Notes: generated by a model from the letters alone, not told the origin. Counted from the stretch's first letter, positions 14,128-42,088 are shown. The stretch is DNA of 64,000 bases from Oscillospiraceae bacterium (GCA_015063605.1 SVTV01000016.1:1-64000); one strand, 5' to 3'. Numbers and translations are program-made.

Positions 14128-14157
14128 GGGATATTGACATAAAAATATCAAATAACA

Positions 14158-14296
14158 GTTTTTCGGGGACAGGTGAAATTCCGTACCGGCAGTACAGTCT
14201 GCGAGCCTTATGGCTGAATGGGTGTGATTCCCATACCGACAGTTACGTGCATATCCTGTAATTGGGTGTTGCATTACAGTCTGGATGAGAGAAAAC
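14158..14296 (+). promoter_or_regulatory. FMN riboswitch (RFN element)
   Basis: The core bases of the RFN consensus are present in order: GGTGAAATTCC, ACCGGCAGT, CTGCGAGCC, GTGATTCCCATACCGACAGT, and the closing AGTCTGGATGAGAGAA. The ends can pair as P1 (GTTTT with AAAAC). A terminator at 14316-14347 lies between the aptamer and ribU, so FMN should cause early termination. Confidence 0.95.
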
Positions 14297-14315
14297 AAAA
14301 CACTTTTAACGTGCC

Positions 14316-23664: not shown

Positions 23665-24531
23665 TTATATTTGACCGTTTGCCAATTTTTTCATATTTTC
23701 CGCAAGATCGCAGAAGGGAACTTGTTCACGTCCCTTGGGCACCTTTATTACCTCGTACATCAACGGACCTTCATATCCGTTTTCCTCAAGAGCTGCAAAT
23801 ATGGTTTTCCAATCGTTTATGCCGTCTCCCGGGAGGCGGTGCTTTTCGTCTGTAAAATCATAATCGGAGATATGAAGACTGACTATTCTCAAGGCTGCTT
23901 TTGTAAGATTTCTTATGAACACCTCGTTTGTTTCGATAAGAGAGTGATTGGTATCGAAAATTACGCCGACGCCCGTTCCGTTGAGGAGCTCGATCATTTC
24001 GCCTGAGGTGTTGCAAAGGCAAGTTCTGGGAAGGTTCTCGACGGCAAGAGTAATGCCTGCTTCATCTGCGACCTTTTTTAAATATACTATGGCTTCACGG
24101 CTGAGTCGCTTTCTTTCTTCGCGTTCGGAATCTTCTATAGGCTCGCTCGAGGGATGAAGGACTGCAACCTTGATTCCTATTCCGGCTGCGGCTTTGATAA
24201 TAGCCTCGTTTGCTGATATTATGGTGTTTCTTTGTTCTTCGGATGTAACCGAAATATCATGCATTTGCGAGAAGGGGAGATGTATCGAAAATAAGGTTAT
24301 TCCCGCTTCCTTGGCATATTCTGCGTACTTTTCCGCATTATTCGGAAAATCCATGAAATTTATATATCTGTCGTAATTGAAGGACAGCTCGATACAATCT
24401 ATCCCCGCTTCCTTTAATTCCTTAAAAACTTCAACCTCCGAGGTCTTTCCGTTAAGATCCACGAGAAATTCTTTTTCCGCTGATCTGAAAAAGCACGTGG
24501 AGGTGCCTTTCATCAAGTTTTGTGTAAACAT
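23665..24531 (-). CDS. Sugar phosphate isomerase/epimerase, TIM barrel
   Basis: A 288-residue protein of the AP-endonuclease-2-like TIM-barrel superfamily (PF01261), which includes xylose isomerase-like and inosose/tagatose epimerase enzymes. Visible are CIELSFNYD near the N-terminus, VAVLHPSSEP mid-barrel, LAVENLPRT, GVIFDTNH and the LHISDYDF / RLPGDGINDW metal-site strands. No signal peptide. AAGGAG lies about 8 nt upstream of the start at 24531. It follows the MBL-fold gene by 29 nt, so both are probably on one minus-strand transcript. The substrate is not clear; the divergent cyclitol-type operon begins only about 1.1 kb away. Confidence 0.82.
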   Translation of the reverse strand: MFTQNLMKGTSTCFFRSAEKEFLVDLNGKTSEVEVFKELKEAGIDCIELSFNYDRYINFMDFPNNAEKYAEYAKEAGITLFSIHLPFSQMHDISVTSEEQRNTIISANEAIIKAAAGIGIKVAVLHPSSEPIEDSEREERKRLSREAIVYLKKVADEAGITLAVENLPRTCLCNTSGEMIELLNGTGVGVIFDTNHSLIETNEVFIRNLTKAALRIVSLHISDYDFTDEKHRLPGDGINDWKTIFAALEENGYEGPLMYEVIKVPKGREQVPFCDLAENMKKLANGQI

Positions 24532-24560
24532 TAGCTTTCTCCTTTTATGTATTGTTTGTA

Positions 24561-25427
24561 TTATGCCAATTCTTTTTCAATCAGGTCGATCATTATGCTT
24601 GTATTCAGCTCCATGGCATCGATGGGATAGATCGTTTTGACGTATCCGTGATAAAATCTGTTTTTGAAATATTCCAGAGCATCTTGCTTTGAGCCTTTAT
24701 TTTTAAGTATTGCCGAAATATCAGCGGCTGTGGATACCGCACTTTCCCTGCCCAAGTTAAGATACCGCAATGCCATATCCTTTTCAAGAATACCGTAGTG
24801 GGGAAGAAGTATGCTTTCTATATCAAGACTCATTGCCTTATCTATTGAAGATATGGCGGTGCTGTAGCCTATAAGATACGATGGTACTACCGTATCGTTT
24901 CCGTCATATACACCCAATGTCTCGGATGAGAGCAGAAGCTTGTTTTCGTTTAAATAAAATCCCACGGAGCATTTTGTGTGACCGGGTAAAGCTATTACCG
25001 TAAACGTCATATCACCGGCTTGAATAATATCTCCGTCCGAGACCGTGATATCGGCTTTCAATTCATCTATAAAATCCTCGTATTCATAAATTCCGTTTTT
25101 GGCGGCGAATTTTCTGTCAAGAGAACGCATGACCTCACGTGCCGTGGGCTTGGAAAATATTTTTGCCGCATATTCTCCCGCAACGATCTTTACATCAGGG
25201 TAGACCTTTTTTATGTAGACGCTTCCCAATGCATGGTCGTAGTGGGAATGAGTCAAGAAAATATAGTCCGGGGCTCTGTCCCGTAATTCTTCTTTTATCT
25301 TTTCGGCTACCTTGTATCCCGTGAAAGCAAATCCCGTGTCGTATAAAACAGAGGTCTTACCGTTATCAATAAGGAATGCGCTGTCACCGGGAAGTGCACG
25401 TACGTCGGTTATCTTTAAGTTTTGCAT
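24561..25427 (-). CDS. MBL-fold metallo-hydrolase
   Basis: A 288-residue metallo-beta-lactamase-fold protein. The metal motif HSHYDH is at residues 60-65, with a further His in LPGHTKCSVG near 144 and LPHYG near 215, as in the glyoxalase II-like branch. No signal peptide. The frame is open to 25508, but the ATG at 25427 starts the recognisable fold and AAAGGAG is upstream (13 nt, a little long). Substrate unknown. First gene of a two-gene minus-strand operon with the TIM-barrel isomerase. Confidence 0.82.
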   Translation of the reverse strand: MQNLKITDVRALPGDSAFLIDNGKTSVLYDTGFAFTGYKVAEKIKEELRDRAPDYIFLTHSHYDHALGSVYIKKVYPDVKIVAGEYAAKIFSKPTAREVMRSLDRKFAAKNGIYEYEDFIDELKADITVSDGDIIQAGDMTFTVIALPGHTKCSVGFYLNENKLLLSSETLGVYDGNDTVVPSYLIGYSTAISSIDKAMSLDIESILLPHYGILEKDMALRYLNLGRESAVSTAADISAILKNKGSKQDALEYFKNRFYHGYVKTIYPIDAMELNTSIMIDLIEKELA

Positions 25428-25454
25428 TTGATTTTCAAGCTCCTTTACGGAAAT

Positions 25455-25483
25455 ATTATGCCATTTTAAAAGGGTTTTGTCAA
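25455..25483 (-). promoter_or_regulatory. Promoter of the MBL/TIM-barrel operon
   Basis: On the minus strand: TTGACA (25483-25478), 17 bp, CATAAT (25460-25455). It is divergent from the cyclitol operon promoter about 70 bp away. The start codon at 25427 would leave a leader of only about 20 nt. Confidence 0.7.
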
Positions 25484-25532
25484 TAGAAAATGAAATAATA
25501 CATGCCAAAAATATGTTGAGTGTATAAAAGTG

Positions 25533-25561
25533 TTGATTTGCCGTATAAATTGTGTTAAAAT
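25533..25561 (+). promoter_or_regulatory. Promoter of the HAD-SDR-NACHT-cyclase-ROK-SDR operon
   Basis: TTGATT (25533-25538), 17 bp, TAAAAT (25556-25561) with TGT before the -10. It is the only good promoter I see for the six genes 25661-34327, which have small gaps or overlaps. The leader is about 95 nt and A/T-rich. Confidence 0.65.
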
Positions 25562-25660
25562 ATTATATATTGCTTTTACTGTGCGAAAAAATAGAAATAA
25601 TAAAGTTTAATATTATAAACAATATGCTGTCAGACGGTAAAAAGGAAAGAACGGTGCAAA

Positions 25661-26647
25661 ATGAATTTTAATGATAACAGGTTAGTCTTCAATAACGATA
25701 TAAGACTTGTCATCTCTGATGTGGATGATACATTGGCATATCCCTATATGAGTGCATCAGAAAAAATAATAAAAGGCTTGAATGAGATATTAATAAGAGG
25801 TACATCCTTGTTTTTTGTGAGCGGTCAGAGCATTTCGAATATGAGATGGCGGATAATAGACAGATTGGAGCCGAAATACAGACACCGTATTCTTGCGGGT
25901 ACATGCAGCGGTGCCGAGGTATGGGGATTTGATACTGCAGGTGAGCTGATAGATAAACCCTTTTACAGTAAATATGAAGAGCTTTTCGATGACAGTATGA
26001 AGAAAAAGTGGCGTGAAGCGGTAAATGAAGTAATCAAAAGATTTGAGTTTAAAAAATACGAAACAATGCCGAAGCCGAAATTCAGAGAGGTATCTTTATG
26101 CGATTTCAAATCGATAATGTATGAGGACAGAAGCTCGCAGATAACCTTTGAGGTGGTCAATTCATGCTCCCTTAATGATGAGCAATGCGCCCATTACGAA
26201 TCGATCCTCGGATCGCCTCTCAAAAGCAGAGATCTGAGGGTATCTGTGGTGGAGTATGCCAATGAGCTTTTCGAAAGATACTCGCTTCCCGTTACCGCAA
26301 GGTTGGCAGGTAATTTTGCCATCGATCTGGCTGTAAAGGATGTAACCAAGACAACGGCGGTGCAGTATGCACTTTATTCGGGAAATTGCATGACTGCATT
26401 GGAAATGACTCCCAAGGAATTGGAGGATCCTTCGGTCCTTGAGATATGGGGCGATAAGTTTTCCGTTGTGAACGGCGGAACGGACCGCCATATATGTAAA
26501 GCCGTTCCCCCTTCGGTCAGAGCGATAGATTTCAGACATGAGCCCGAATCGGAAATACCGAAGGAATACAATATAAATATATGGGACGGCGAGAGATCTC
26601 TCTGCGAGGCTGTGGAGGATTACATGGAAAGAAGCGGTTTGATATGA
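25661..26647 (+). CDS. HAD-superfamily hydrolase
   Basis: A 328-residue protein with the HAD nucleophile motif DVDDTLA (residues 20-26), motif II FFVSGQS (about 50-56), a Lys motif near KDVTKTTAV (about 225-233) and an acidic motif around GDKFSVVNGG. The large middle insert suggests a type-II cap as in Cof-like or phosphomannomutase-like sugar phosphatases. AAGGAAAG precedes ATG 25661. First gene of the operon; its stop overlaps the next start by 4 nt (ATGA). In this setting it could dephosphorylate a sugar or cyclitol phosphate; that is inference. Confidence 0.75.
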   Translation: MNFNDNRLVFNNDIRLVISDVDDTLAYPYMSASEKIIKGLNEILIRGTSLFFVSGQSISNMRWRIIDRLEPKYRHRILAGTCSGAEVWGFDTAGELIDKPFYSKYEELFDDSMKKKWREAVNEVIKRFEFKKYETMPKPKFREVSLCDFKSIMYEDRSSQITFEVVNSCSLNDEQCAHYESILGSPLKSRDLRVSVVEYANELFERYSLPVTARLAGNFAIDLAVKDVTKTTAVQYALYSGNCMTALEMTPKELEDPSVLEIWGDKFSVVNGGTDRHICKAVPPSVRAIDFRHEPESEIPKEYNINIWDGERSLCEAVEDYMERSGLI

Positions 26648-27402
26648 GCATTATAAATAAAAATATAATAGTGACAGGCGCAACGGGAGGAATAGGCAGA
26701 GAGGTTGTAAAATCCCTTGCGGCTGCTAAAGCCAATGTCGCTTTTTGCTCGAGAAACGAGGAAAATGTAAATGCACTTTTTCTTGAGCTGAAGGAAGAAT
26801 TCCCGGAGGCTGTGTTTTACTGCTGCTCCTGCGATATTTCCTCCGAAAGCGATGTAAAGAAGTTTATCGGTAATGTATATTCCGAATTCGGAAAGATCGA
26901 CGGAGTAGTGAATAATGCGGGTGTAGGTTATTTTGATTCTTTCCTTGATCTTACCGAGGAAAAGTGGAACGAGATAATAAATACGAATGTTCACGGTACG
27001 GTGAATATGTGCCGTGAGGTAATACCGTATATACTGAAAAACGACAAAGAAAACGGAAAAAGAGGGATAATCATCAATGTGGGAAGCTCTTCTCCGCAAA
27101 AATACGTTGCGGGTAATATTGCTTACGCTTCTTCAAAGGCGGCATTGAAGACATTTTCGGAATATCTTTTCAATGAGTACAGAAAAAGCGGAATAAGTGT
27201 TACTCACGTTTCCGTGGGAAGCGTTAACACTGGATTTTCAAAGAGAAACAAGGATACCATCGGTTGGAAGATCAAGCCTTGGGAAACGGGATATATCATA
27301 AAGACTCTTGCTGAGATGGCTTTTGTTACTGAAAATGCCTGCTTGCCCAATATTGATGTGCGTACCATGAATCCCATAGAGTGTAATGGCGATAAAGAAT
27401 GA
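26644..27402 (+). CDS. SDR-family oxidoreductase (first of two)
   Basis: A 252-residue classical short-chain dehydrogenase. It has TGATGGIG (11-18) for NAD(P) binding, NNAG near residue 90, a catalytic Ser in NVGSSS and the YASSK active-site pair (about 162-166). Start ATG 26644 overlaps the HAD stop as ATGA, giving translational coupling. The NACHT-WD40 gene follows after 18 nt. The alcohol or ketone it acts on is unknown; within the operon a cyclitol or sugar is the natural guess. Confidence 0.88.
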   Translation: MSIINKNIIVTGATGGIGREVVKSLAAAKANVAFCSRNEENVNALFLELKEEFPEAVFYCCSCDISSESDVKKFIGNVYSEFGKIDGVVNNAGVGYFDSFLDLTEEKWNEIINTNVHGTVNMCREVIPYILKNDKENGKRGIIINVGSSSPQKYVAGNIAYASSKAALKTFSEYLFNEYRKSGISVTHVSVGSVNTGFSKRNKDTIGWKIKPWETGYIIKTLAEMAFVTENACLPNIDVRTMNPIECNGDKE

Positions 27403-27420
27403 CAGTCGAGGTGTGATCGG

Positions 27421-30400
27421 ATGATAAAGAGGATAATCAGAATTTTTCTTTTGCTTGTGGGAGCGGTAATAAAGTTTGTAACATTGGATCTGAAGGACGG
27501 CTTTGAGCTGTTTTGCGAATTCGGTATAACGCTTTGCGAGCTCTTTGTGGGCGAAGGACTTCTCGAAAGCAGAATGAACAGGAAAAAGCTTCTCAAAGGA
27601 TCGGAAAGGTATTATGAGCAGCTGATAAGATCGGCAAAATTCGGCAGTATCACGATATCGGATAAAATAATGTGCGGCTTTTCGGATGATGACAGCGATC
27701 TTTACTCCTATATGAAAAGCGAATGGGAAAAGGGCGCAAGCTCAAATGTTCTTCTCACGGGTGAGGGAGGAATGGGAAAAACGGTATCCATGCTCCATAT
27801 GTGGGGAAGCCTTTTGAATAATGACGAAAAGGACAAAGAAGACAAAAAGGATAAAAAGGATAATAAGGATAAATCCGATAAGAAAGCCGAAGCGAAGAAG
27901 AAAAGCAAGGACAAAACAAAGGACGAAAAAAAGAAGACAAAGCTTCAGACCGTTCCCGTATACATTCAGCTTAATGAATACAACGCATATTCCAAGGAGA
28001 ACAGCGGCAGAAGCTTTATTTGCGACAGAATAAACGATAAGTACCTTTTTGATGATTCCGAAGAGGATAAGCATTTGACAAAGGCTGAAATGTACCGTTT
28101 TCTCAACAGAAAAACGAAAAAGAATCAGAAGGAGCCTTCTGTGATCCTCCTTCTTGACGGCTTCAATGAGGTGACTGCAGAGGATAAGATACCTCTTATA
28201 GATGAAATAAAAGATATCATACACAATTACGGCAATATCCGTCTCATCATTTCCTCAAGATATGATATGAGAAGCAATCACGGATGGATGGAGGATTTCT
28301 CCCATTACGACCTTGCTCCATTGACGCGTCTTCAGGTACAGCAGTACTTATCGGAATACGATGTGGAAATGCCGACAGATCCCAAAACAGTCGATCTGAT
28401 ATCGAATCCCATGATGCTTACGCTTTATGCGAAAACGGGAGGAGTATCGGATACAAATTCCCGTATTGAGACATGTGGAGAGCTTATCAGAGCCTATATT
28501 GAAAGCCAGATAAGGAATGAACGAATGAATTCGGAAAGCGATGTTGCCGAGCAAAAGGTCTTTCTCATCAAATATGTTTTGCCGTACATCGCATACAGAA
28601 TGGAGCTTTCGGGAGCGTATTTTCTAAAGTACGATGAGCTTTTGAATGTGGTGAATGAAGCGTATAACAGCGAATTTAACCATATGCGCTATGCAAATAT
28701 TCTTTCTGCCGATTTCGGAAGCGGTTATAAGGCTCTTCTGTCTTTGGGAAATAAGGAAAAGGATCTTGCTGAGCATCGTATAAACACTCTAGAAAATGAG
28801 ATAAGCATGCTTTCAAAAAGCGAAAACGGCTTTACGGGAACTTATTCATTCCAACATCAGAATTACAGAGACTATTTTTCATCAAGATACATTGTCAATG
28901 ATATGCGTGCCGCATCCGATGATAAAAATGACATTGCACTTTCAATGGAGATAAGGGTGCTTCCCCGCTTTATTGTTAAAATGCTCGGTGAAGCGGAGGG
29001 AGAGCATCATTTCATAAGGAGTATATCTGACGGTACATACGTATTTAAGAAGGATGAAAGCATCTTCGCTCTTTATATCGAGAAGTTCAGAGGCAGATTC
29101 GATAAGGAAAAGGAGCTTGCCGTAAGAAATCTTATAGAGATATGGAAGACCTCAAGAGGAGAGCTTTCGGGAATAGACTTTTCCTACCTCAATCTTTCCG
29201 ATTGCATTTTCAATAACGTAATATGCGGAAGAGGAAGAAAAATGGGAGCCGATTTTATCGGTGCAAAGATCGATTTTTCTTCATTCCTCCCCCAGGGACA
29301 CGTTCAGTGGGTATACAATGTATCTTATTTTAACGACGATAAGATGTGTATCTCCGCTTCCCGTGACGGATATATAAAGGAATGGAATCTCGATTCGGGA
29401 GCCTGTGTTTATTCCTTCAAGATCGATGCTGAGGTGATCTGGGCGTTCCATATGAATGATGACCGCCATATTATAGCCGTGACCTCAGATGACAAAGCTA
29501 TATATATCGATAAGAACGGCGGTTCTGTCATAAAGACCGAAAAGCTCTCCTCAAAGCCCGTTGAGGTGAAGTTCTTCCCATTGAAGGAAAAGATGTATAT
29601 TGCTCTTTCTGAGGGAAGGGCAATATCCTGCTATACAAAGAGCTTTCTTTTTGAAGATGTATGTTCGTTTGGCGAAGCAATATGCTCAATGGACATCACA
29701 AGATCTGTAAGCAGAATGATAGTCGGTAGCAAAAGCGGCAAGATATTCGGTGCGGATCTTACCGACGGTGAAGCATATCTTATCGGAAAAGCATCCGACC
29801 GCGCCGTAACTAAGATAGCCTTCGGTAAAAAGGATATTGCGGCAATTGTTACCGACGATTATGTTATCAGGGAGATCGATACCGACGATATGACCGAAAC
29901 AGGTCGATATGAAGGTCATACCTCTGTTATAAACAGCATTTGCTATAACAAGGACTATACGTGTCTTCTTAGTACTTCGGATGATGATATCATAAAGGAA
30001 TGGTCATGCAGCGATCATATAAGCAATAACTTCAATCTGCATTACGACAGTGTGTTCTGCGCGGTCTATAATTCCGACTGTAAAAAAATACTGTCATCAT
30101 CGAGAGATTTTTCCATACGTCAATGGGATGTATCCTCGGGAGAAATGACTCTTTCCATTGTCGGATTGTCATATTTTACACGTTCCACACGCTTTTCCGA
30201 TGACGGAAATAAGATACTCGTTTCTTCGTGCGACGGAACGGTAAGGGAATTTGATTCCGCTACGGGAAAATGCATCAATACTTATCTCGGACATACGGAC
30301 AGAGTATACCGTGCGGTATACAATTCCGATAATACAAGGATATTGTCGGCTTCTCTTGACAAGGGCGTATACGAATGGGAGGTCGGTAAGTGCGACTCCT

Positions 30401-31191
30401 TTGACGTTTGCAGCAGTCATGAAAAATGTGCGGATTGCGCCGTTTACCTTGATGACGGCAGAGTGATCTCTATATCTGCCGACGGAGTTATCAGACATTC
30501 GGAAAAAATAAGCGGGGCATGGAAAAGCAAGCTTCATCCTGCAACGCAGATGTATATTCCGAAGGAGCAAAACGGCGTTACGGAAACTGTCGGAACGAAT
30601 GCGATCTGCTGTGAAGATGGTGTAAGCTATTTTGTTTCTTATTGGGACGGTACCATTGCACGGTATAATAAGAACACGAATGAGCTTATGAGATCATTCA
30701 GAAAGCATACCAATTGGGTATACTGCTGTGTTCTTGCCTCCGACGGAGCAACTATGTATTCCGTATCCAAGGACGGTACCGTGGCAAAATGGAAAGCGGA
30801 AAGCGGTGAAGCTCTTTGTGAGTCGGTAAATGTCGGGAAAGGCAGTATTTACTCGGCTGAGCTTGATGAGCAAAAAAGAGAGATACTCATTTCCACAACA
30901 AAGAATGTTGCCGTGATCCTTGATATGGATTCCCTTGCGGAAAAGTATGTTCTTGAAGGCCACGGCGGAAGAGTTTTCAGCGCATCCTACAGCCGTGATA
31001 AAAAAAGAATTGTTACCATGTCCGAGGACGGCACCATACGGATATGGGAATTCAAGGATACATGGCAGGAAGCCTTTATTTTCAATAATATAATGGGAAT
31101 TATTATAAACGGATGTGATTTTACCGATGTGCAGGATAAGCTTACTCCTGCGGAAAAAGGAATCATAAGACAATATGGAGGAACGGTCTGA
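27421..31191 (+). CDS. NACHT-WD40 STAND NTPase
   Basis: A 1256-residue protein. In order: a hydrophobic N-terminal segment (about 5-20, possible membrane helix); a linker; a NACHT NTPase with Walker A GEGGMGKT (114-121) and Walker B LLLDGFNE (243-250); a helical region; a short pentapeptide-repeat-like stretch (about 580-612, FSYLNLSDCIFNN); and about 14 WD40-type repeats (about 623-1215), enough for two seven-bladed propellers; then a short C-terminal tail with CDFTD and YGG. A Lys/Asp-rich insert at 137-175 splits the NACHT core between Walker A and B. No nuclease or other effector domain is visible. STAND proteins with this layout include eukaryotic NLR-like sensors and bacterial phage-defence ATPases. 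Position in the middle of a metabolic operon is odd. Confidence 0.88.
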   Translation: MIKRIIRIFLLLVGAVIKFVTLDLKDGFELFCEFGITLCELFVGEGLLESRMNRKKLLKGSERYYEQLIRSAKFGSITISDKIMCGFSDDDSDLYSYMKSEWEKGASSNVLLTGEGGMGKTVSMLHMWGSLLNNDEKDKEDKKDKKDNKDKSDKKAEAKKKSKDKTKDEKKKTKLQTVPVYIQLNEYNAYSKENSGRSFICDRINDKYLFDDSEEDKHLTKAEMYRFLNRKTKKNQKEPSVILLLDGFNEVTAEDKIPLIDEIKDIIHNYGNIRLIISSRYDMRSNHGWMEDFSHYDLAPLTRLQVQQYLSEYDVEMPTDPKTVDLISNPMMLTLYAKTGGVSDTNSRIETCGELIRAYIESQIRNERMNSESDVAEQKVFLIKYVLPYIAYRMELSGAYFLKYDELLNVVNEAYNSEFNHMRYANILSADFGSGYKALLSLGNKEKDLAEHRINTLENEISMLSKSENGFTGTYSFQHQNYRDYFSSRYIVNDMRAASDDKNDIALSMEIRVLPRFIVKMLGEAEGEHHFIRSISDGTYVFKKDESIFALYIEKFRGRFDKEKELAVRNLIEIWKTSRGELSGIDFSYLNLSDCIFNNVICGRGRKMGADFIGAKIDFSSFLPQGHVQWVYNVSYFNDDKMCISASRDGYIKEWNLDSGACVYSFKIDAEVIWAFHMNDDRHIIAVTSDDKAIYIDKNGGSVIKTEKLSSKPVEVKFFPLKEKMYIALSEGRAISCYTKSFLFEDVCSFGEAICSMDITRSVSRMIVGSKSGKIFGADLTDGEAYLIGKASDRAVTKIAFGKKDIAAIVTDDYVIREIDTDDMTETGRYEGHTSVINSICYNKDYTCLLSTSDDDIIKEWSCSDHISNNFNLHYDSVFCAVYNSDCKKILSSSRDFSIRQWDVSSGEMTLSIVGLSYFTRSTRFSDDGNKILVSSCDGTVREFDSATGKCINTYLGHTDRVYRAVYNSDNTRILSASLDKGVYEWEVGKCDSFDVCSSHEKCADCAVYLDDGRVISISADGVIRHSEKISGAWKSKLHPATQMYIPKEQNGVTETVGTNAICCEDGVSYFVSYWDGTIARYNKNTNELMRSFRKHTNWVYCCVLASDGATMYSVSKDGTVAKWKAESGEALCESVNVGKGSIYSAELDEQKREILISTTKNVAVILDMDSLAEKYVLEGHGGRVFSASYSRDKKRIVTMSEDGTIRIWEFKDTWQEAFIFNNIMGIIINGCDFTDVQDKLTPAEKGIIRQYGGTV

Positions 31192-31248
31192 TCCTTCGGG
31201 CGTCTTACGGTGTTTTCATCCGTATATACAAAAGGAACGGTCATTGAT

Positions 31249-32469
31249 ATGGCAGAGAAGCCTTACGAAGTAAAAGAAAAAACAGAATACTTCTTTCCTA
31301 TTTACAAATGCGATACCGTCAGGGAAACCATGGAGCTTTTAAAGAAGAAACTTGGAGACCGTAAAGCATTGTTCGTTCTCGACAGAGAGTATGACGAGCT
31401 TATAAATAACAGGCTTTCCGATACGGTGAAAGAGTTTTTCGATGAAGAAAGTAACGGCATAATATCTCTCTATCCGAGAAAAAACGGCTGTGAAAACAAG
31501 GATCACGAAAGCTTGTTTATGATACTTGACAAGCTTATAGATATGGATCTTCCCCGTGACGGCGTTATAGTCGGGATAGGAGGCGGTGTCATCACCGATA
31601 TTGCGGGATTTGCCGCCCGTCAATTCAGACGGATGGTGGATTTTGTCAGAGTCCCCACAACGCTTCTCGGTCAGATCGATGCATCCGTGGGAATAAAGGT
31701 CGGTATCAATTACAACGGGAATAAAAATATTCTCGGAGCATTTTACGCACCCTTGTTTGTCATAAACTGCCGTGAATTCCTTTACGATCTCGACGATATC
31801 AATTTCAACAGCGGCATTTCAGAGATGCTTAAGGCGGGAATAGTCGAATCTTCGGTGATAATTGACGGTCTTCGCGAGCGTAGATACAATGCACCTCTTT
31901 TAAGAAACGATGCTTTCGCAATGGAAAGCTTTGACATCATTACCGATGAGTCCGTTGATGTGATGAAGCGCATTATCATGGATGACCCCGAGGAAAAAAG
32001 CTTCGGTGTAAGAAGCATGGATCTTGGACACACCTTCAGCCTTTCCTATGAGGCAATAAGCGGATACAAAATGCCCCACGGATATGCGGTTGCCGCAGAG
32101 GTGGTAATCTGTGCATATATTTCACGTGCCTTGGGACTTCTGTCATTGGAAGAAATGAGGGTGTATGAAAAAATATTCCTAAAATACGATCTTTTGAAAT
32201 ACTATGACATGATCTATCCCGAGATCAAAGAAATCTTCGATAAGACCGTTGATAAGATAGTGTCCCATAGAGCGGGAAATTTGAATCTCGTTTTGCCCGA
32301 AAGCGGATGCAAAGCATCATTTTGTAATCTTTTTGGAACAAAAGATGAAAACAGAGCGGGATGCAGAGTCCTTCTGACAAAGGATGAGCTGCGCAGTCTT
32401 TATTGCGGCGGTGCCGATATGGCAAATGAGCTTGCCAAGGGAAAATATCGGAATAAGGCTTTACGCTAA
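31249..32469 (+). CDS. Sugar phosphate cyclase, 2-epi-5-epi-valiolone synthase-like
   Basis: A 406-residue member of the dehydroquinate-synthase/sugar-phosphate-cyclase superfamily. NAD-binding GIGGGVITDIAG is near 107-118, and the metal ligands appear to be Glu192, His261 and His277. Features that favour an EEVS-like enzyme over dehydroquinate synthase: RVPTTLLGQIDASVGIK continuing to VGIN (dehydroquinate synthases have SVGGKTAVN), RR before it, GNKN-x-LG, and DLGHTFS at 258-264, with Asp where DHQ synthases have Asn and no second His four residues after the metal-binding His. EEVS cyclises sedoheptulose 7-phosphate to a C7 cyclitol. I start at ATG 31249 (AAAAGGAACGG upstream) rather than GTG 31210. 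A ROK kinase follows 21 nt downstream. Confidence 0.78.
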   Translation: MAEKPYEVKEKTEYFFPIYKCDTVRETMELLKKKLGDRKALFVLDREYDELINNRLSDTVKEFFDEESNGIISLYPRKNGCENKDHESLFMILDKLIDMDLPRDGVIVGIGGGVITDIAGFAARQFRRMVDFVRVPTTLLGQIDASVGIKVGINYNGNKNILGAFYAPLFVINCREFLYDLDDINFNSGISEMLKAGIVESSVIIDGLRERRYNAPLLRNDAFAMESFDIITDESVDVMKRIIMDDPEEKSFGVRSMDLGHTFSLSYEAISGYKMPHGYAVAAEVVICAYISRALGLLSLEEMRVYEKIFLKYDLLKYYDMIYPEIKEIFDKTVDKIVSHRAGNLNLVLPESGCKASFCNLFGTKDENRAGCRVLLTKDELRSLYCGGADMANELAKGKYRNKALR

Positions 32470-32490
32470 AAGAAAGGAATCTACATAAAT

Positions 32491-33489
32491 ATGAAAATAT
32501 GTGTATGTGATATTGGCGGTACGAATTTCAGAATGGCAGTTTTTGAGAATGGAAAGATAAGCAATATAATAAAACGTCCTACGCCCAATTTTTATAAATA
32601 TTCCGTAAATGAAATATTCGAAAGACTTGTATCGGGGATCGCCGAGGATTTCAGATATCTTTGCGGTGTTGCGGGTGAGATGAACTGTCTTTCTCTTTGC
32701 TTTCCCGGACCCACCGATAAAAACGGAAATGCTCTCGGAAGCAGTGTCATTTTCGGTGATGAGCTGGAGTCGCCCCTTCCGCTGAAAAAGCTCTTAGAGG
32801 AGCGTCTTCACGGGGTGACTGTTTCCGTGACAAATGATATTACTGCGGCTTCCTACAGATATATGGAAAAATACGACAGCTTTTGTCTTATCACCGTAAG
32901 CTCGGGAATCGGAAATAAGGTATGTATAGACCGCCGTGTAATAATTGACGACAGAGGAAGAACAGGGGAGATAGGTCATATCGAATATCCAATAAATGGT
33001 TTTGAAATAGAGTGCACCTGCGGTACGGGTATAAATCACGTCGGCATGATATCAAGCGGCAGAGGCGTGGAGGATATGGCGAGAAGACTTGCTGTAAAAG
33101 AAAAGTTTGGCGTTCTTTATGAAAAAAGCGTTCTCAAGGAAATATTCAACGGAAGCTATGCGGATATAACCGCAGAGGAGGTTGCGAAAGCCGCCGACAG
33201 CGGTGATGAGTATGCAAGAGCCGTGATAGATTTTTGTACGGTCCCGCTGGCTGATGTGATATGCACCTTGGGTATTGCCATGGATATTCCGCATTTTGTC
33301 ATCATAGGCGGATTTGCATTGAACTGCGGTTATTATATAGAGTCATTGCGCAGGAATGCCGTGGAAAAGGGAATATATAATTTCTCCCCCGAGGATATAG
33401 AAGGCATGATAGTATTGGGAGAAAAGGATGATGACCACGGTCTTATCGGAAGCGGCATTATGATGGAAGAATATTTCCGCAATGCGTAA
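32491..33489 (+). CDS. ROK-family sugar/cyclitol kinase
   Basis: A 332-residue ROK kinase with the phosphate loop DIGGTNFR (7-14), TNDITAAS near 113-120, the GEIGH motif (His163), CTCG (Cys175, Cys177) and SSGRGVE near 189-195. The zinc motif of ROK proteins is CxCGxxGC; here the third Cys is replaced (Asn182, followed by His183). No DNA-binding domain, so it is an enzyme and not a repressor. In the acarbose pathway the ROK-type kinase AcbM phosphorylates 2-epi-5-epi-valiolone next to the EEVS AcbC; the same gene order here suggests the same pairing, though glucokinase activity cannot be excluded. AAAGGAAT precedes ATG 32491. Confidence 0.8.
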   Translation: MKICVCDIGGTNFRMAVFENGKISNIIKRPTPNFYKYSVNEIFERLVSGIAEDFRYLCGVAGEMNCLSLCFPGPTDKNGNALGSSVIFGDELESPLPLKKLLEERLHGVTVSVTNDITAASYRYMEKYDSFCLITVSSGIGNKVCIDRRVIIDDRGRTGEIGHIEYPINGFEIECTCGTGINHVGMISSGRGVEDMARRLAVKEKFGVLYEKSVLKEIFNGSYADITAEEVAKAADSGDEYARAVIDFCTVPLADVICTLGIAMDIPHFVIIGGFALNCGYYIESLRRNAVEKGIYNFSPEDIEGMIVLGEKDDDHGLIGSGIMMEEYFRNA

Positions 33490-33562
33490 GCTTTCAGACC
33501 TATAAGAAACCGAAGGTTTAAGATATCAAATACAAGAAGAAAAACATTGGAGGAAGAACATA

Positions 33563-34327
33563 ATGGAATTTCAGAACAAAACAGCAATATCAACGGGAGC
33601 GGCATCGGGAATGGGGCTTCTGTTTGCGGAAAACTTTGCCGATCTCGGCGGAAACGTTGTCATGTGTGACGTGAATGAAGAAGTCCTTACGGAAAAGGTA
33701 AACGCCATCAACGCAAGGGGAAAAGGAAAAGCGGTAGGCGTTTACTGCGATGTTCGTGATTATGCACAGGTATGTGCGGCACGTGACAGAGCGGTAGCTG
33801 AATTCGGAAGCATAGATATTATGGCGAATTTCGCCGGAGGATCGTCTGTCAGAATTCAGAAGGTGGACAGACAAAAATATCCGGAATTCCCCGACGTGCC
33901 CATTGATGTGTTTGATTGGGGAATAGACGTGAATCTCAAGGGTCCATTTTACTTTGCCCATGCGGTTCTTAAGCAGATGAGAGAACAGCACAGCGGTCTT
34001 ATAATAAATATCGGTTCGATCTCCGGTGCGGAGGGACACCATTATGATATGGATTATCCCACATCGAAAGCCGGACTTATGCACGGTCTTACCAAATGCA
34101 TAGCGCAATACGGTGCGGGAAAGGGAATACGTTGTGTCTGTGTTTCTCCCGGACCTGTCCTTACACGTGCTGCTATGGCAAATATGGCAACCCCTCTCGG
34201 AAGAGCGGCTGAACCTCAGGAGATCATAGACCTGATACTTTTCATTGCTTCCGATAAGGGGCAGTTCATTAACGGTGAAAATATTATGATCGACGGCGGA
34301 AGAAACGCCATGGGAAGAAAGGTGTAA
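33563..34327 (+). CDS. SDR-family oxidoreductase (second of two)
   Basis: A 254-residue classical SDR with TGAASGMG (11-18), NFAG near residue 89 (usual NNAG), Ser in NIGSISG and the YPTSK active-site pair (about 171-175), ending ENIMIDGG as is common in the family. GGAGG lies 9 nt upstream of ATG 33563. Last gene of the operon (73-nt gap after the ROK kinase) and closed by a terminator. It is only distantly like the first SDR, so the two probably do different steps. Its HHYDMDYPTSK loop is typical of polyol or cyclitol dehydrogenases, but this is a weak hint. Confidence 0.87.
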   Translation: MEFQNKTAISTGAASGMGLLFAENFADLGGNVVMCDVNEEVLTEKVNAINARGKGKAVGVYCDVRDYAQVCAARDRAVAEFGSIDIMANFAGGSSVRIQKVDRQKYPEFPDVPIDVFDWGIDVNLKGPFYFAHAVLKQMREQHSGLIINIGSISGAEGHHYDMDYPTSKAGLMHGLTKCIAQYGAGKGIRCVCVSPGPVLTRAAMANMATPLGRAAEPQEIIDLILFIASDKGQFINGENIMIDGGRNAMGRKV

Positions 34328-34348
34328 CGGCAGATATATAATAAGCAA

Positions 34349-34387
34349 GGGTGGTGCATATCGGTGCAGCACCCCGATTTGATTTTT
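34349..34387 (+). terminator. Terminator of the cyclitol-type operon
   Basis: GGGTGGTGCA/TGCAGCACCC (one mismatch) with a 6-nt loop is followed by CGATTTGATTTTTTT. It ends the six-gene operon that began near 25568. Confidence 0.82.
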
Positions 34388-34419
34388 TTAAAAATTTTCA
34401 AAAAAATTCTGCCTTCATG

Positions 34420-34447: not shown

Positions 34448-34492
34448 TACAGATGAAGAGCTCTCAAATAATTGTCCGAAGGAGGTGTCGAT

Positions 34493-35068: not shown

Positions 35069-35112
35069 AAGATATATTCGGATGTATCTGTGTGAAGGGA
35101 GATATCGAATAC

Positions 35113-36537
35113 ATGAAAAAGGAACAGATAGTTGATATGATCGGCGAAGCGCCCGATAAATATGTGAAGGATGCGAAGGAGCATAAGGGGAAACGCCGTA
35201 TTTCATCAAAGCTCAAGTGGATAGGCGGTATTGCGGCTGTTCTTGCGGTGTTGATACTCATAAATAATATGCCGGGAATTCCCATGATGATATTCGCCAA
35301 AGCCGTGAGCGAAGCATCCGAGGCGAGAAAAACTGACAGACCGCAGCACGGTACCGATGAGTATTACGAGTGGCTTGAAAGCGTGAAGGAAAGAGACGAA
35401 ATGACAATCACCGCAATCCCTCATATATCGGATTTTGCGGGAAATGTTTCAAAGGAGCTGCTTTGCGGTGTTGATGATAAAAACCGCATCTGGTCTCCCG
35501 TCAATGCTTATATAGCTCTTGCCATGACTGCGGAGCTTGCCGACGGCGATGCCCGATCGGAATTGCTCGAATTGCTCGGAGCAGAGTCTTCGGAAAGCTT
35601 AAGGGCAATGACGAGCGCAGTATGGGAGAGCGTTTATGCCAATGACGGTAACGAAATAAGCGTCCTTGCCAATTCCTTGTGGCTTGATGATGATCTTGAA
35701 TATGCTCAGGATAAGATGGATATTCTTGCGTATGATTACTATGCCTCGGTGTATCAAGGAGATCTCGGAAGCGAACGCACCGATAAAGACATTACTAATT
35801 GGATAAGAAATCAAACGGGCGGGATGCTTTCCGAACGTAAGGAAAATATGAAGCTTGCCCCCGAGGACAAATTGCTGACGATGGTATCAACGATATATTA
35901 TCAGGCGAAGTGGAAAGACGAATTCGATAAGTCAAAGAATACGGAAAGTGTTTTTCACGCTTCAAACGGTGATGTAAAATGCACCTTCATGAATAAAAGC
36001 AGATATAATATGGATTACTTCTGGGCTGAGGATTACGGTGCTGTACAGATGTTCCTCAAAAACGGATCGTCCATGTGGTTTATTCTGCCCGATGAGGATA
36101 AGACAGTTGATGATGTTCTGGAAAAAGGTGATTATATGAATATGCTTGTCGGAAAGTTCCCTGCGGAAAACAGTAAGTGGATGAAGGTCAATCTTTCCGT
36201 TCCGCAATTTGATGTTTCATCAAGTATTGATGTGAAGGAGGGACTTATGAATATGGGCATTACAAAGGTGTTCGATTGGACGGGAAGTCCTTTCTCTTCA
36301 TCGCTTAACAGTAAGACAAGCGGTTATCCCGTTTATCTTAACAGTATCAATCAAGAGACACGTGTTAAAATCGATGAAAAGGGTGTTGAGGCGGCAAGCT
36401 ATATAGAGCTTGATTTCGGTGCGGGTGCAGCGGCGCCTCCCGATGAGGTGATCGATTTCATCCTTGACAGACCGTTCGTTTTCGCAATTACAAAAAGCGG
36501 AGTGCCGCTTTTTGTGGGAACGGTGAACAAGCCGTAA
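35113..36537 (+). CDS. Membrane-anchored serpin with anti-sigma-like N-terminus
   Basis: A 474-residue protein. Residues 1-34 are cytoplasmic and charged (MKKEQIVDMIGEAPDKYVKD), a pattern seen in clostridial anti-sigma proteins beside ECF sigma genes; 35-55 form one membrane helix (IGGIAAVLAVLILIN); residues about 90-474 are an outside serpin (protease-trapping) domain. Serpin marks include the shutter-type NSLWL region, WKDEFDK and the reactive-loop hinge EKGVEAAS (422-429), consistent with an inhibitory serpin; the loop is rich in Gly/Ala, hinting at an elastase- or subtilisin-like target. I start at ATG 35113 (AGGGAG upstream) not GTG 35092. Fusing a serpin to an anti-sigma-like tail suggests protease sensing. 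Confidence 0.85.
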   Translation: MKKEQIVDMIGEAPDKYVKDAKEHKGKRRISSKLKWIGGIAAVLAVLILINNMPGIPMMIFAKAVSEASEARKTDRPQHGTDEYYEWLESVKERDEMTITAIPHISDFAGNVSKELLCGVDDKNRIWSPVNAYIALAMTAELADGDARSELLELLGAESSESLRAMTSAVWESVYANDGNEISVLANSLWLDDDLEYAQDKMDILAYDYYASVYQGDLGSERTDKDITNWIRNQTGGMLSERKENMKLAPEDKLLTMVSTIYYQAKWKDEFDKSKNTESVFHASNGDVKCTFMNKSRYNMDYFWAEDYGAVQMFLKNGSSMWFILPDEDKTVDDVLEKGDYMNMLVGKFPAENSKWMKVNLSVPQFDVSSSIDVKEGLMNMGITKVFDWTGSPFSSSLNSKTSGYPVYLNSINQETRVKIDEKGVEAASYIELDFGAGAAAPPDEVIDFILDRPFVFAITKSGVPLFVGTVNKP

Positions 36538-40170: not shown

Positions 40171-41838
40171 TCAGTCTATCTGAGGGAGCTTGCGGTTCTT
40201 GGTGAGCATCTTAAGAACAACAGCAGTACCTATTGTAACGAGGATTCCGAGAGGCAGACAGATGAATACGTTCTGTACGAATCCGGAAATGAGGAACATT
40301 ACAAAGGATATACCCGCAACCGTAAGAGCATAGGGGATCTGTGTTGAAACGTGTGCCAAGTGGTCACACTGCGCACCTGCAGAGGACATGATGGTCGTAT
40401 CGGAAATGGGGGAGCAGTGGTCGCCGCAAACTGCGCCTGCGAGACATGCGGACATTCCGATGGTGAGAAGCTCGCTTCCTTCGGGGAATATACCGACAAC
40501 GATGGGTATAAGGATACCGAAGGTTCCCCAGGATGTACCGGTGGAGAATGCGAGGAAGCATGCAACGAGGAATATGATAGCGGGAAGGAAGTTTGCAAGA
40601 CCTGCAGCAGAGTTGCTCATAAGGTCGTACACAAAATACTTTGTTCCGAGAAGAGAGGTCATATTCTTAAGAGCTGTTGCGAATGTAAGGATAAGTATTG
40701 CGGGAACCATTGCGCAGAAGCCGTCGGGAAGAGCGGCGAGGCTCTTTTCGAAGGAAAGCACCTTGCGTGCGGCAAGATAAATAATGGAAACCACAAGAGC
40801 GATAAGACCGCCCATAGGAAGACCTACTGTTGCGTCTGTATCAGCGAACGCGTCGATAAAGCTTGCTCCGTCCAATATACCGCCTACATATACGAGGCAG
40901 AATACGCTGGCAACGATAAGAACGATAACGGGGAAGAGAAGATCGAATACTATTCCCTTGTCATTTGTTTCGGGAAGCTTGGAGGATTCTGAGGTTTCGA
41001 TAGCATCGGGCTTGCCTGTGGACTGAACCTTGAATTCGTAAGCCGCCATCTTACCGTAGTCGAAGCCGATGAAGGTGATAACAACTATGAATACCAATGT
41101 GAGGAGTGCGTAGAAGTTATAGGGGATAGCGGAGATGAAAAGCTCAAGACCCTTTCCTTCTTCTGCGTAAGAGGAAACTGCCGCAGCCCAGGAGGAGATG
41201 GGGGCTATCATACAAACGGGAGCCGCTGTGGAGTCGATTATGTAAGAAAGCTTTGCACGGGATATCTTGTGCGTATCGGTAACGGGCATCATGACTGAGC
41301 CGACTGTAAGACAGTTGAAATAGTCATCGATGAATATGAGTATACCGAGAGCGAATGTGGCGAGAATAGCGCCTACTCTCGTCTTGATGTGGGTAGCTGC
41401 CCAGCGTCCGAAAGCGGCGGAACCGCCTGCACGGTTAACGAGAGCAACGAGCATACCAAGCTCAACGAGGAATATGAATATACCTGCGTTTCCTGCAACC
41501 GCTTCGATGAAGCCGCCGTTTATAGCGGAATCAAGAGTGCCTGTGAAGCTGAAATTGCTGTAAAGCAATGCGCCGGATACGACACCGATGAAGAGGGAGC
41601 TGTAAACTTCTTTTGTAATGAGCGCCAATCCGATGGCGATAACGGGAGGAAGCAGAGCCCAGATCGTACCGCGTACAGCACCTTCGCCGCCGCAGGTCTC
41701 ACAAGCTTCCATTGTCTCGGCTGTACAGTCGGGGCAAGCGACAGTACCCGAGGAGCCGTCCGTAATGCACGCTACAACGAGCAATATTATTATTGCGACG
41801 GAAGCGAGAAGGAGGGCAAGCTTTTTGTTCTTAGACAT
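40171..41838 (-). CDS. NhaC-family transporter, probable lysine importer
   Basis: A 555-residue membrane protein with about 12 hydrophobic segments and motifs of the NhaC Na+/H+ antiporter family (IFIDDYFNCLTVG, STGTSWGTFGI, GDHCSPISDTTIMSSAG). A lysine riboswitch and terminator sit directly upstream, so lysine uptake, as predicted for L-box-controlled NhaC relatives (LysW), is more likely than plain Na+/H+ exchange. Odd feature: the first loop carries two CxxC pairs (Cys35/38 and Cys46/49) between the first and second membrane helices, like a small zinc ribbon facing outside. AAGGAG precedes the start at 41838. Confidence 0.85.
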   Translation of the reverse strand: MSKNKKLALLLASVAIIILLVVACITDGSSGTVACPDCTAETMEACETCGGEGAVRGTIWALLPPVIAIGLALITKEVYSSLFIGVVSGALLYSNFSFTGTLDSAINGGFIEAVAGNAGIFIFLVELGMLVALVNRAGGSAAFGRWAATHIKTRVGAILATFALGILIFIDDYFNCLTVGSVMMPVTDTHKISRAKLSYIIDSTAAPVCMIAPISSWAAAVSSYAEEGKGLELFISAIPYNFYALLTLVFIVVITFIGFDYGKMAAYEFKVQSTGKPDAIETSESSKLPETNDKGIVFDLLFPVIVLIVASVFCLVYVGGILDGASFIDAFADTDATVGLPMGGLIALVVSIIYLAARKVLSFEKSLAALPDGFCAMVPAILILTFATALKNMTSLLGTKYFVYDLMSNSAAGLANFLPAIIFLVACFLAFSTGTSWGTFGILIPIVVGIFPEGSELLTIGMSACLAGAVCGDHCSPISDTTIMSSAGAQCDHLAHVSTQIPYALTVAGISFVMFLISGFVQNVFICLPLGILVTIGTAVVLKMLTKNRKLPQID

Positions 41839-41894: not shown

Positions 41895-41917
41895 CAATAA
41901 ATGAGGACATTTCAACC

Positions 41918-42070
41918 GATAGCTCTCCACAAAAAGTGACAGAATGCAAAATATTCTCCTGCATTCCGACGTGAGGAACGCTCGCCGTTCCCGACATCTC
42001 GGCGAAAAGCCCTTTCTCCGTCCCTGCGAGAGGTTGTTACACGGATACTGATGCGTTTCGCGCCTCTATC
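41918..42070 (-). promoter_or_regulatory. Lysine riboswitch (L box)
   Basis: Read on the minus strand the conserved parts come in order: GATAGAGGCGCG, ATCAGTA, GGAGAAAGG, GCCGAGAT, CTGTCA and GTGGAGAGCTATC. The ends pair as P1 (GATAG/CTATC). With the terminator at 41866-41894 this predicts shut-off by lysine. Confidence 0.93.
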
Positions 42071-42088
42071 TTTTGTATTAATACCATG

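Follow-up and report, generated by a model that had tools for sequence, protein, structure and literature searches.

Six genes of an Oscillospiraceae bacterium, contained in a 64,000-nucleotide stretch of one contig (GCA_015063605.1, SVTV01000016.1:1-64000; hereafter the window), probably specify the biosynthesis of a C7 cyclitol, or pseudosugar, as judged from the sequences of the encoded enzymes; this assessment is for the cyclitol pathway and excludes any role of the NACHT-WD40 protein encoded among them. The pathway is well supported because the ROK-family kinase belongs to a fully supported clade of ROK proteins that accompany sedoheptulose-7-phosphate cyclases (SH7PCs), because it carries the CxCG...H signature of that clade, and because the cyclase displays the active-site states of the SH7PCs. 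The locus is thus supported, in its enzymatic half, as a divergent variant of the C7-cyclitol pathway type, and its STAND-NTPase partner is intriguing and unproven.

Organization of the operon

The six genes are co-directional on the plus strand from 25661 to 34327 and follow the order HAD, SDR, NACHT-WD40, cyclase, ROK, SDR, a content and order that, together with the family labels, confirm the first-pass annotation of this DNA. They respectively encode a putative phosphatase of the HAD superfamily with a type IIB-like affinity (25661-26647; 328 aa), a short-chain dehydrogenase/reductase (SDR1, 26644-27402), a NACHT-type STAND NTPase (27421-31191; 1256 aa), a sugar-phosphate cyclase predicted to be of the SH7PC kind (31249-32469; 406 aa), a ROK-family kinase of the SH7PC-associated (cyclitol kinase) clade (32491-33489; 332 aa), and a classical FabG-like short-chain dehydrogenase (SDR2, 33563-34327). 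The HAD and SDR1 genes overlap by 4 nt, and the subsequent gaps measure 18, 57, 21 and 73 nt. The start of the cyclase was taken to be the ATG at 31249, which has AAAGGA upstream, in preference to a GTG at 31210 that is without a ribosome-binding site, and SDR2 is preceded by a strong GGAGG site. All of the catalytic motifs inspected across the operon are intact.

It had also been claimed that one promoter and one terminator bracket these genes. The terminator-like element is present on the plus strand at 34349-34389, where a hairpin (34349-34374; -17.3 kcal/mol, z -2.06), itself unlisted by the consensus scan, is followed by a run of seven T residues starting eight bases past it. The candidate promoter (25533-25561, plus strand; TTGATT and TAAAAT with a spacing of 17 and a TG before the -10 element) is a 9/12 match and no better than chance; it has to be considered weak since the region contains 30 promoter-like sites as against 22 +/- 5 in shuffled sequences, a count without clear excess over the latter. 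A single transcript across the six genes is nevertheless plausible, given the hairpin and T run behind the last gene. The TIM-barrel and MBL genes on the opposite strand (23665-25508) were rejected as members of the pathway, as they show no similarity at a threshold of 1e-4 to TIM proteins from clusters with an SH7PC.

The ROK kinase and its affinities

The ROK protein (PF00480, 4.6e-27) provides stronger evidence than the cyclase, and appears to be a kinase of the cyclitol-kinase type. Its best matches among the loci collected in our analysis are ROK proteins encoded adjacent to SH7PCs, with 34-38% identity over 327-334 aa to those of Cohnella, Bacillus enclensis and Lysinibacillus, and 30% to that of Paenibacillus; these SH7PC-adjacent versions score 135-170 bits, whereas no other ROK of the host genome exceeds 48 bits. 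In a phylogenetic tree, one side of a branch with 100/100 support is occupied by the window protein and 13 SH7PC-adjacent ROKs, and the other side by 14 further ROKs from the same genomes, AcbM and ValC being absent from this tree; none of the other ROKs of the host genome that were placed in it falls inside the SH7PC-associated clade. The protein is therefore separated from glucokinase-type ROKs, with which a grouping had been named in advance as an argument against the cyclitol pathway. The clade is also unified by a CxCG...H-[LIV] motif shared by the window protein, in place of which other ROKs with a recognizable motif have CxCGxxGC, and by NDxTAA and SSGI motifs that take the form NDxTAA and SSGIG in the window protein. 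Among the 80 cyclase loci in the matches listed, a ROK of this clade accompanies 14 of the 57 SH7PC-like cyclases and none of the 23 DHQS-like ones (DHQS, dehydroquinate synthase).

Active site, phylogeny and fold of the cyclase

An alignment of the cyclase was made with DHQSs from its order and class and with some 80 relatives drawn from 84,980 species genomes. In it the protein has GIK where DHQSs have GGK, RxxDxGHTFS where they have RxxxNxGHTxGH and, near the C terminus, IVSHRAGNLN, which corresponds to IVLHRGNKLN in Bacillota SH7PCs and to DKK... in DHQSs. The characteristic SH7PC states, namely G-[IVA]-K, RxxDxGH and an HRxG close to the C terminus, are hence all present, and in the N-x-G-H-x-x-x-H signature of DHQS the Asn is replaced by Asp and the second His by Leu. 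Glu192, His261 and His277 (numbering by alignment), which we take to be the three metal ligands of DHQS, are conserved. After GHTF the protein has S-L, a state also seen in the Zooshikella cyclase (locus L119), where characterized 2-epi-5-epi-valiolone synthases (EEVSs) have S-P. Its identity to any SH7PC compared is 31-36%. The protein is not the shikimate enzyme, and taken together the active-site states suggest an enzyme of the SH7PC kind. The earlier designation of this protein as EEVS-like accordingly holds if taken to refer to the SH7PC group, for which both active site and fold speak, and the specific EEVS label is not established: the product may be EEVS, EVS, DDGS or another.

Phylogenetic analysis places the cyclase apart from the DHQSs with a support of 98, and in a second tree the split of SH7PCs plus the window protein from DHQSs receives 100/98, so that the protein, when placed in a sugar-phosphate-cyclase tree, lies outside the DHQS clade, a grouping with DHQSs having been put forward as potential counter-evidence. 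The second tree also supports (99/91) the split of DHQSs plus the window protein from SH7PCs; as both splits are supported, the cyclase hangs on a long branch (length 2.6) at the internode between the two groups, and it may represent a third lineage between them. An AlphaFold2 model of the protein (pLDDT 90.1, with 28 sequences in the input alignment) finds its best fold match in the PDB in ValA (4p53; TM 0.81 and 0.90), followed by DDGS at 0.79, and the DHQS entries listed reach 0.61-0.72. We treat this match as supporting evidence, since the input alignment is rich in SH7PCs and may pull the model towards ValA.

Two other interpretations of the enzymes have to be weighed against the C7-cyclitol pathway. 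The most conventional would have the cyclase as a second DHQS and the ROK protein as a glucokinase, both serving ordinary primary metabolism. Profile searches lend themselves to such a view, in that Pfam and NCBIfam call the protein DHQ_synthase (PF01761, 3.4e-32) and aroB, and its best matches in a phmmer search of the PDB are DHQSs, but the score of 199.9 bits against the NCBIfam aroB equivalog lies beneath the cut-off of 305. The replacement of the Asn and second His of the DHQS signature, the placement of the kinase apart from glucokinase-type ROKs in the tree, and a fold nearer to ValA than to the DHQS entries listed all argue in the opposite direction, as does the second of the two DHQS-family genes of the host genome, which lies on contig C5 and has canonical DHQS motifs. 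This interpretation is rejected by the trees, motifs, fold and separate DHQS, and we regard it as very improbable. A less drastic departure would have the cyclase as a member of a third, uncharacterized lineage with a different substrate or product, and the ROK protein acting on a correspondingly different cyclitol, so that the pathway would still yield a cyclitol, though not by an EEVS-type route. The long branch at the SH7PC/DHQS internode with support for both splits, the S-L in place of S-P, and an identity to SH7PCs that does not exceed 36% are in its favor. Its kinase partner, however, is firmly within the clade accompanying SH7PCs, a grouping of the cyclase with Bacillota SH7PCs is not rejected (p-AU 0.31), and its motif IVSHRAGNLNLVLP is almost the same as IVLHRGGNINLVLP of Eubacterium plexicaudatum; on balance we consider a third lineage of this type unlikely, and retain the C7-cyclitol pathway as the preferred reading.

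Accessory enzymes and the NACHT-WD40 protein

SDR1 (PF00106, 2.9e-51) has intact TGxxxGIG, NNAG and YxxSK motifs, and SDR2 (PF13561, 4e-45) intact TGxxxGxG and YxxSK motifs. The HAD protein matches TIGR01484 (HAD-IIB) with an e-value of 7.9e-5 and 22.8 bits, against a cut-off of 41.8, and contains the motifs DVDDT, FFVSG, DVTK and GGTD; its single-sequence structure model has a pLDDT of 37, too low for use.

The NACHT-WD40 protein is recognized by the WD40 profile (PF00400, 1.7e-35), by NPHP3_N (1.8e-4), and by the NACHT HMM at 2.3e-4 and 21.5 bits, beneath the curated cut-off of 26.7. It possesses a Walker A motif (GEGGMGKT, aa 114), a Walker B motif with a small residue after the Asp (LLLDGFNE, aa 243), and C-terminal WD40 propellers beginning at about residue 630, which are the defining features of NACHT-clade STAND NTPases. 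Its N terminus is hydrophobic (residues 5-23, mean hydropathy 2.1), and a low-complexity insert rich in lysine and aspartate interrupts the NACHT domain just past Walker A (window positions 27825-27945). PADLOC gave a weak match in the WD40 region only. A 1617-aa WD40 protein of the same order (L158:6305-11158, minus strand), encoded near an adenine deaminase, matches the stretch just after the NACHT region of the window protein with 34% identity.

That this gene belongs to the six-gene string, as previously proposed, stands; an association with the enzymes in relatives does not, both it and the HAD protein being found at none of the 80 related SH7PC and DHQS loci among the matches listed, and hence its link to the pathway is drawn from its position in the operon. 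There is about an even chance that it is an unrelated defense or conflict gene lodged inside a metabolic operon, an explanation compatible with the cyclitol reading of the enzymes. Its absence from those loci points in this direction, as do the genomic settings of its relatives: the nearest full-length one found, on a Haliscomenobacter plasmid (28% identity), lies beside a second NACHT gene and a gene for a caspase-family protein, and the WD40-bearing relative within the order has the deaminase in its vicinity. Against it stand the location on the same strand with flanking gaps of 18 and 57 nt and the GC, GC3 and codon usage, which resemble those of the neighbors; reading through the sequence also uncovered no transposase or repeat element between the operon genes. 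A horizontal insertion judged from composition was rejected, there being no shift in GC or GC3. The further proposal, that the NACHT-WD40 protein is a built-in sensor that controls, gates or is fed by pseudosugar synthesis, or that the cyclitol is itself a conflict or immunity signal or effector molecule, with the cyclase constituting a new lineage, appears decidedly doubtful to us.

Phyletic patterns and gene-neighborhood conservation

Close orthologs of the cyclase were sought without success in 22 genomes of the family, 394 of the order and 391 of the class, as were those of the ROK protein in 399 genomes of the phylum and those of the HAD protein and of the N terminus of the NACHT protein in 295 genomes of the order. 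Homologues of the HAD protein were absent from these 295 genomes, from plasmids and from the viral-contig scan, and the viral contigs had no relatives of the cyclase either. A scan of genome contigs from about 85,000 species genomes with two short patterns returned, among the matches listed, a best cyclase match of about 33% identity, and neither these matches nor the sampled genomes of the family, order, class and phylum contained an ortholog of the whole operon. The expected conservation of gene order in relatives was therefore not observed, with the cyclase-ROK pair alone recurring, in Bacillota, Actinomycetota and Rhizobiaceae. A literature search found no relevant report on valiolone in gut Clostridia.

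Comparison with known systems

In the acarbose and validamycin pathways, cyclitol 7-kinase activity resides in two ROK proteins, AcbM and ValC; AcbN is an SDR that depends on NADPH, and the 7-phosphate is stripped by phosphatases of the AcbJ type (PMC7081202, PMC9200736). The window resembles these systems (AcbC-AcbM-AcbN-AcbJ; ValA-ValC) in combining an SH7P-cyclase-like enzyme with a ROK kinase, an SDR reductase and a phosphatase. However, of the gene set of an acarbose/validamycin-type cluster it has the cyclase, kinase, SDRs and HAD only: an AcbO-type epimerase, an aminotransferase, a nucleotidyltransferase and a glycosyltransferase are all missing from the six operon genes, as is the Zn-dependent AcbL. 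It further differs in its distantly related cyclase, the NACHT-WD40 gene inside the operon, and a host that is not an actinomycete.

The closest ROK proteins, and some of the closest cyclases, come from a gene cluster of Bacillota, namely Cohnella (L050), Paenibacillus (L052), B. enclensis (L053), Lysinibacillus (L057) and Eubacterium plexicaudatum (L118), with which the window shares the HRxxxLN motif in the cyclase and the CxCG...H motif in the kinase. Unlike the window operon, this cluster includes a class III aminotransferase, which is joined in several cases by a cupin, TIM barrel, Zn-dehydrogenase, NUDIX or hexapeptide protein, and none of its loci has a NACHT-WD40 protein or a HAD protein of the window type. 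The combination of SH7PC, ROK and class III aminotransferase recurs in the first four of these loci, is apparently uncharacterized, and resembles an aminocyclitol pathway. In the version of the cluster carried by Eubacterium plexicaudatum ASF492 (L118:9541-15501), what look like frameshifts, or else errors of assembly, disrupt the genes for the cyclase and the ROK kinase. A plasmid-borne cluster of Agrobacterium vitis (L036; SH7PC-ROK-MDR-SDR-TIM-MFS) also has a cyclase with a ROK directly behind it, along with an SDR, and, like the window, no aminotransferase among the annotated adjoining genes; it departs from the window in having an S-P cyclase of EEVS type, an MDR, a TIM barrel and a transporter, and in lacking a NACHT gene.

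The ebo operon encodes a divergent sugar phosphate cyclase, EboD, that is annotated as DHQS by default (PMC5133447); its accompanying genes are of the UbiA-type, amidohydrolase and phosphodiesterase families, without the ROK and SDR genes seen in the window. With the NACHT-WD40 STAND NTPases of conflict systems (PMC7159879) the window protein shares the NACHT-like NTPase and C-terminal WD40 propellers, but it is situated in a metabolic operon with no adjoining gene for a caspase, nuclease, TIR or other effector.

Proposed pathway and its implications

From the families represented we infer the following substrate, order of steps and product. Sedoheptulose 7-phosphate, which would be supplied by transketolase, a gene for which is present in the genome, would be closed by the cyclase into a valiolone-like C7 cyclitol ketone. 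Phosphorylation of this ketone would fall to the ROK kinase, in the manner of AcbM and ValC; the two SDRs might then reduce or oxidize positions of the ring, a role that AcbN has in acarbose synthesis, and in the last step the phosphate could be stripped by the HAD enzyme. The product would most likely be a small cyclitol without nitrogen, or a phosphate of one, since the operon is devoid of aminotransferase, nucleotidyltransferase and glycosyltransferase genes. The role that we consider most likely for the NACHT-WD40 protein is that of a sensor or scaffold switched by ATP, possibly anchored in the membrane, that would be co-produced with the enzymes.

C7 cyclitols mimic sugars and inhibit glycosidases, acarbose and validamycin being examples. 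If the pathway is as proposed, a bacterium of the gut could produce a mimic of this type within the intestine, the very site of carbohydrate digestion. The divergent cyclase helps to chart the zone between the shikimate and pseudosugar enzymes, and the NACHT-WD40 protein, should its link to the pathway be real, would tie an NTPase of the innate-immune type to small-molecule synthesis.

Host and other features of the window

The host is probably a member of the gut Clostridia, given that, in the tree, the DHQSs from its order cluster with Oscillospiraceae ones and that the window contains a Gut-1 RNA (RF01706, 44170-44243; 64.2 bits) beside a tRNA-Pro, in agreement with a gut origin. Beyond the operon, a bacterial serpin (35092-36537; PF00079, 1.1e-59) is encoded directly behind a sigma-factor-like gene at 34472; among the other genomes of the family, a single one has a relative of it at 1e-30. 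An FMN riboswitch (14155-14300) precedes the gene for a riboflavin-type ECF transporter (14448), and a lysine riboswitch (41912-42076) precedes a gene of the Na+/H+ antiporter family (40171-41838, minus strand).
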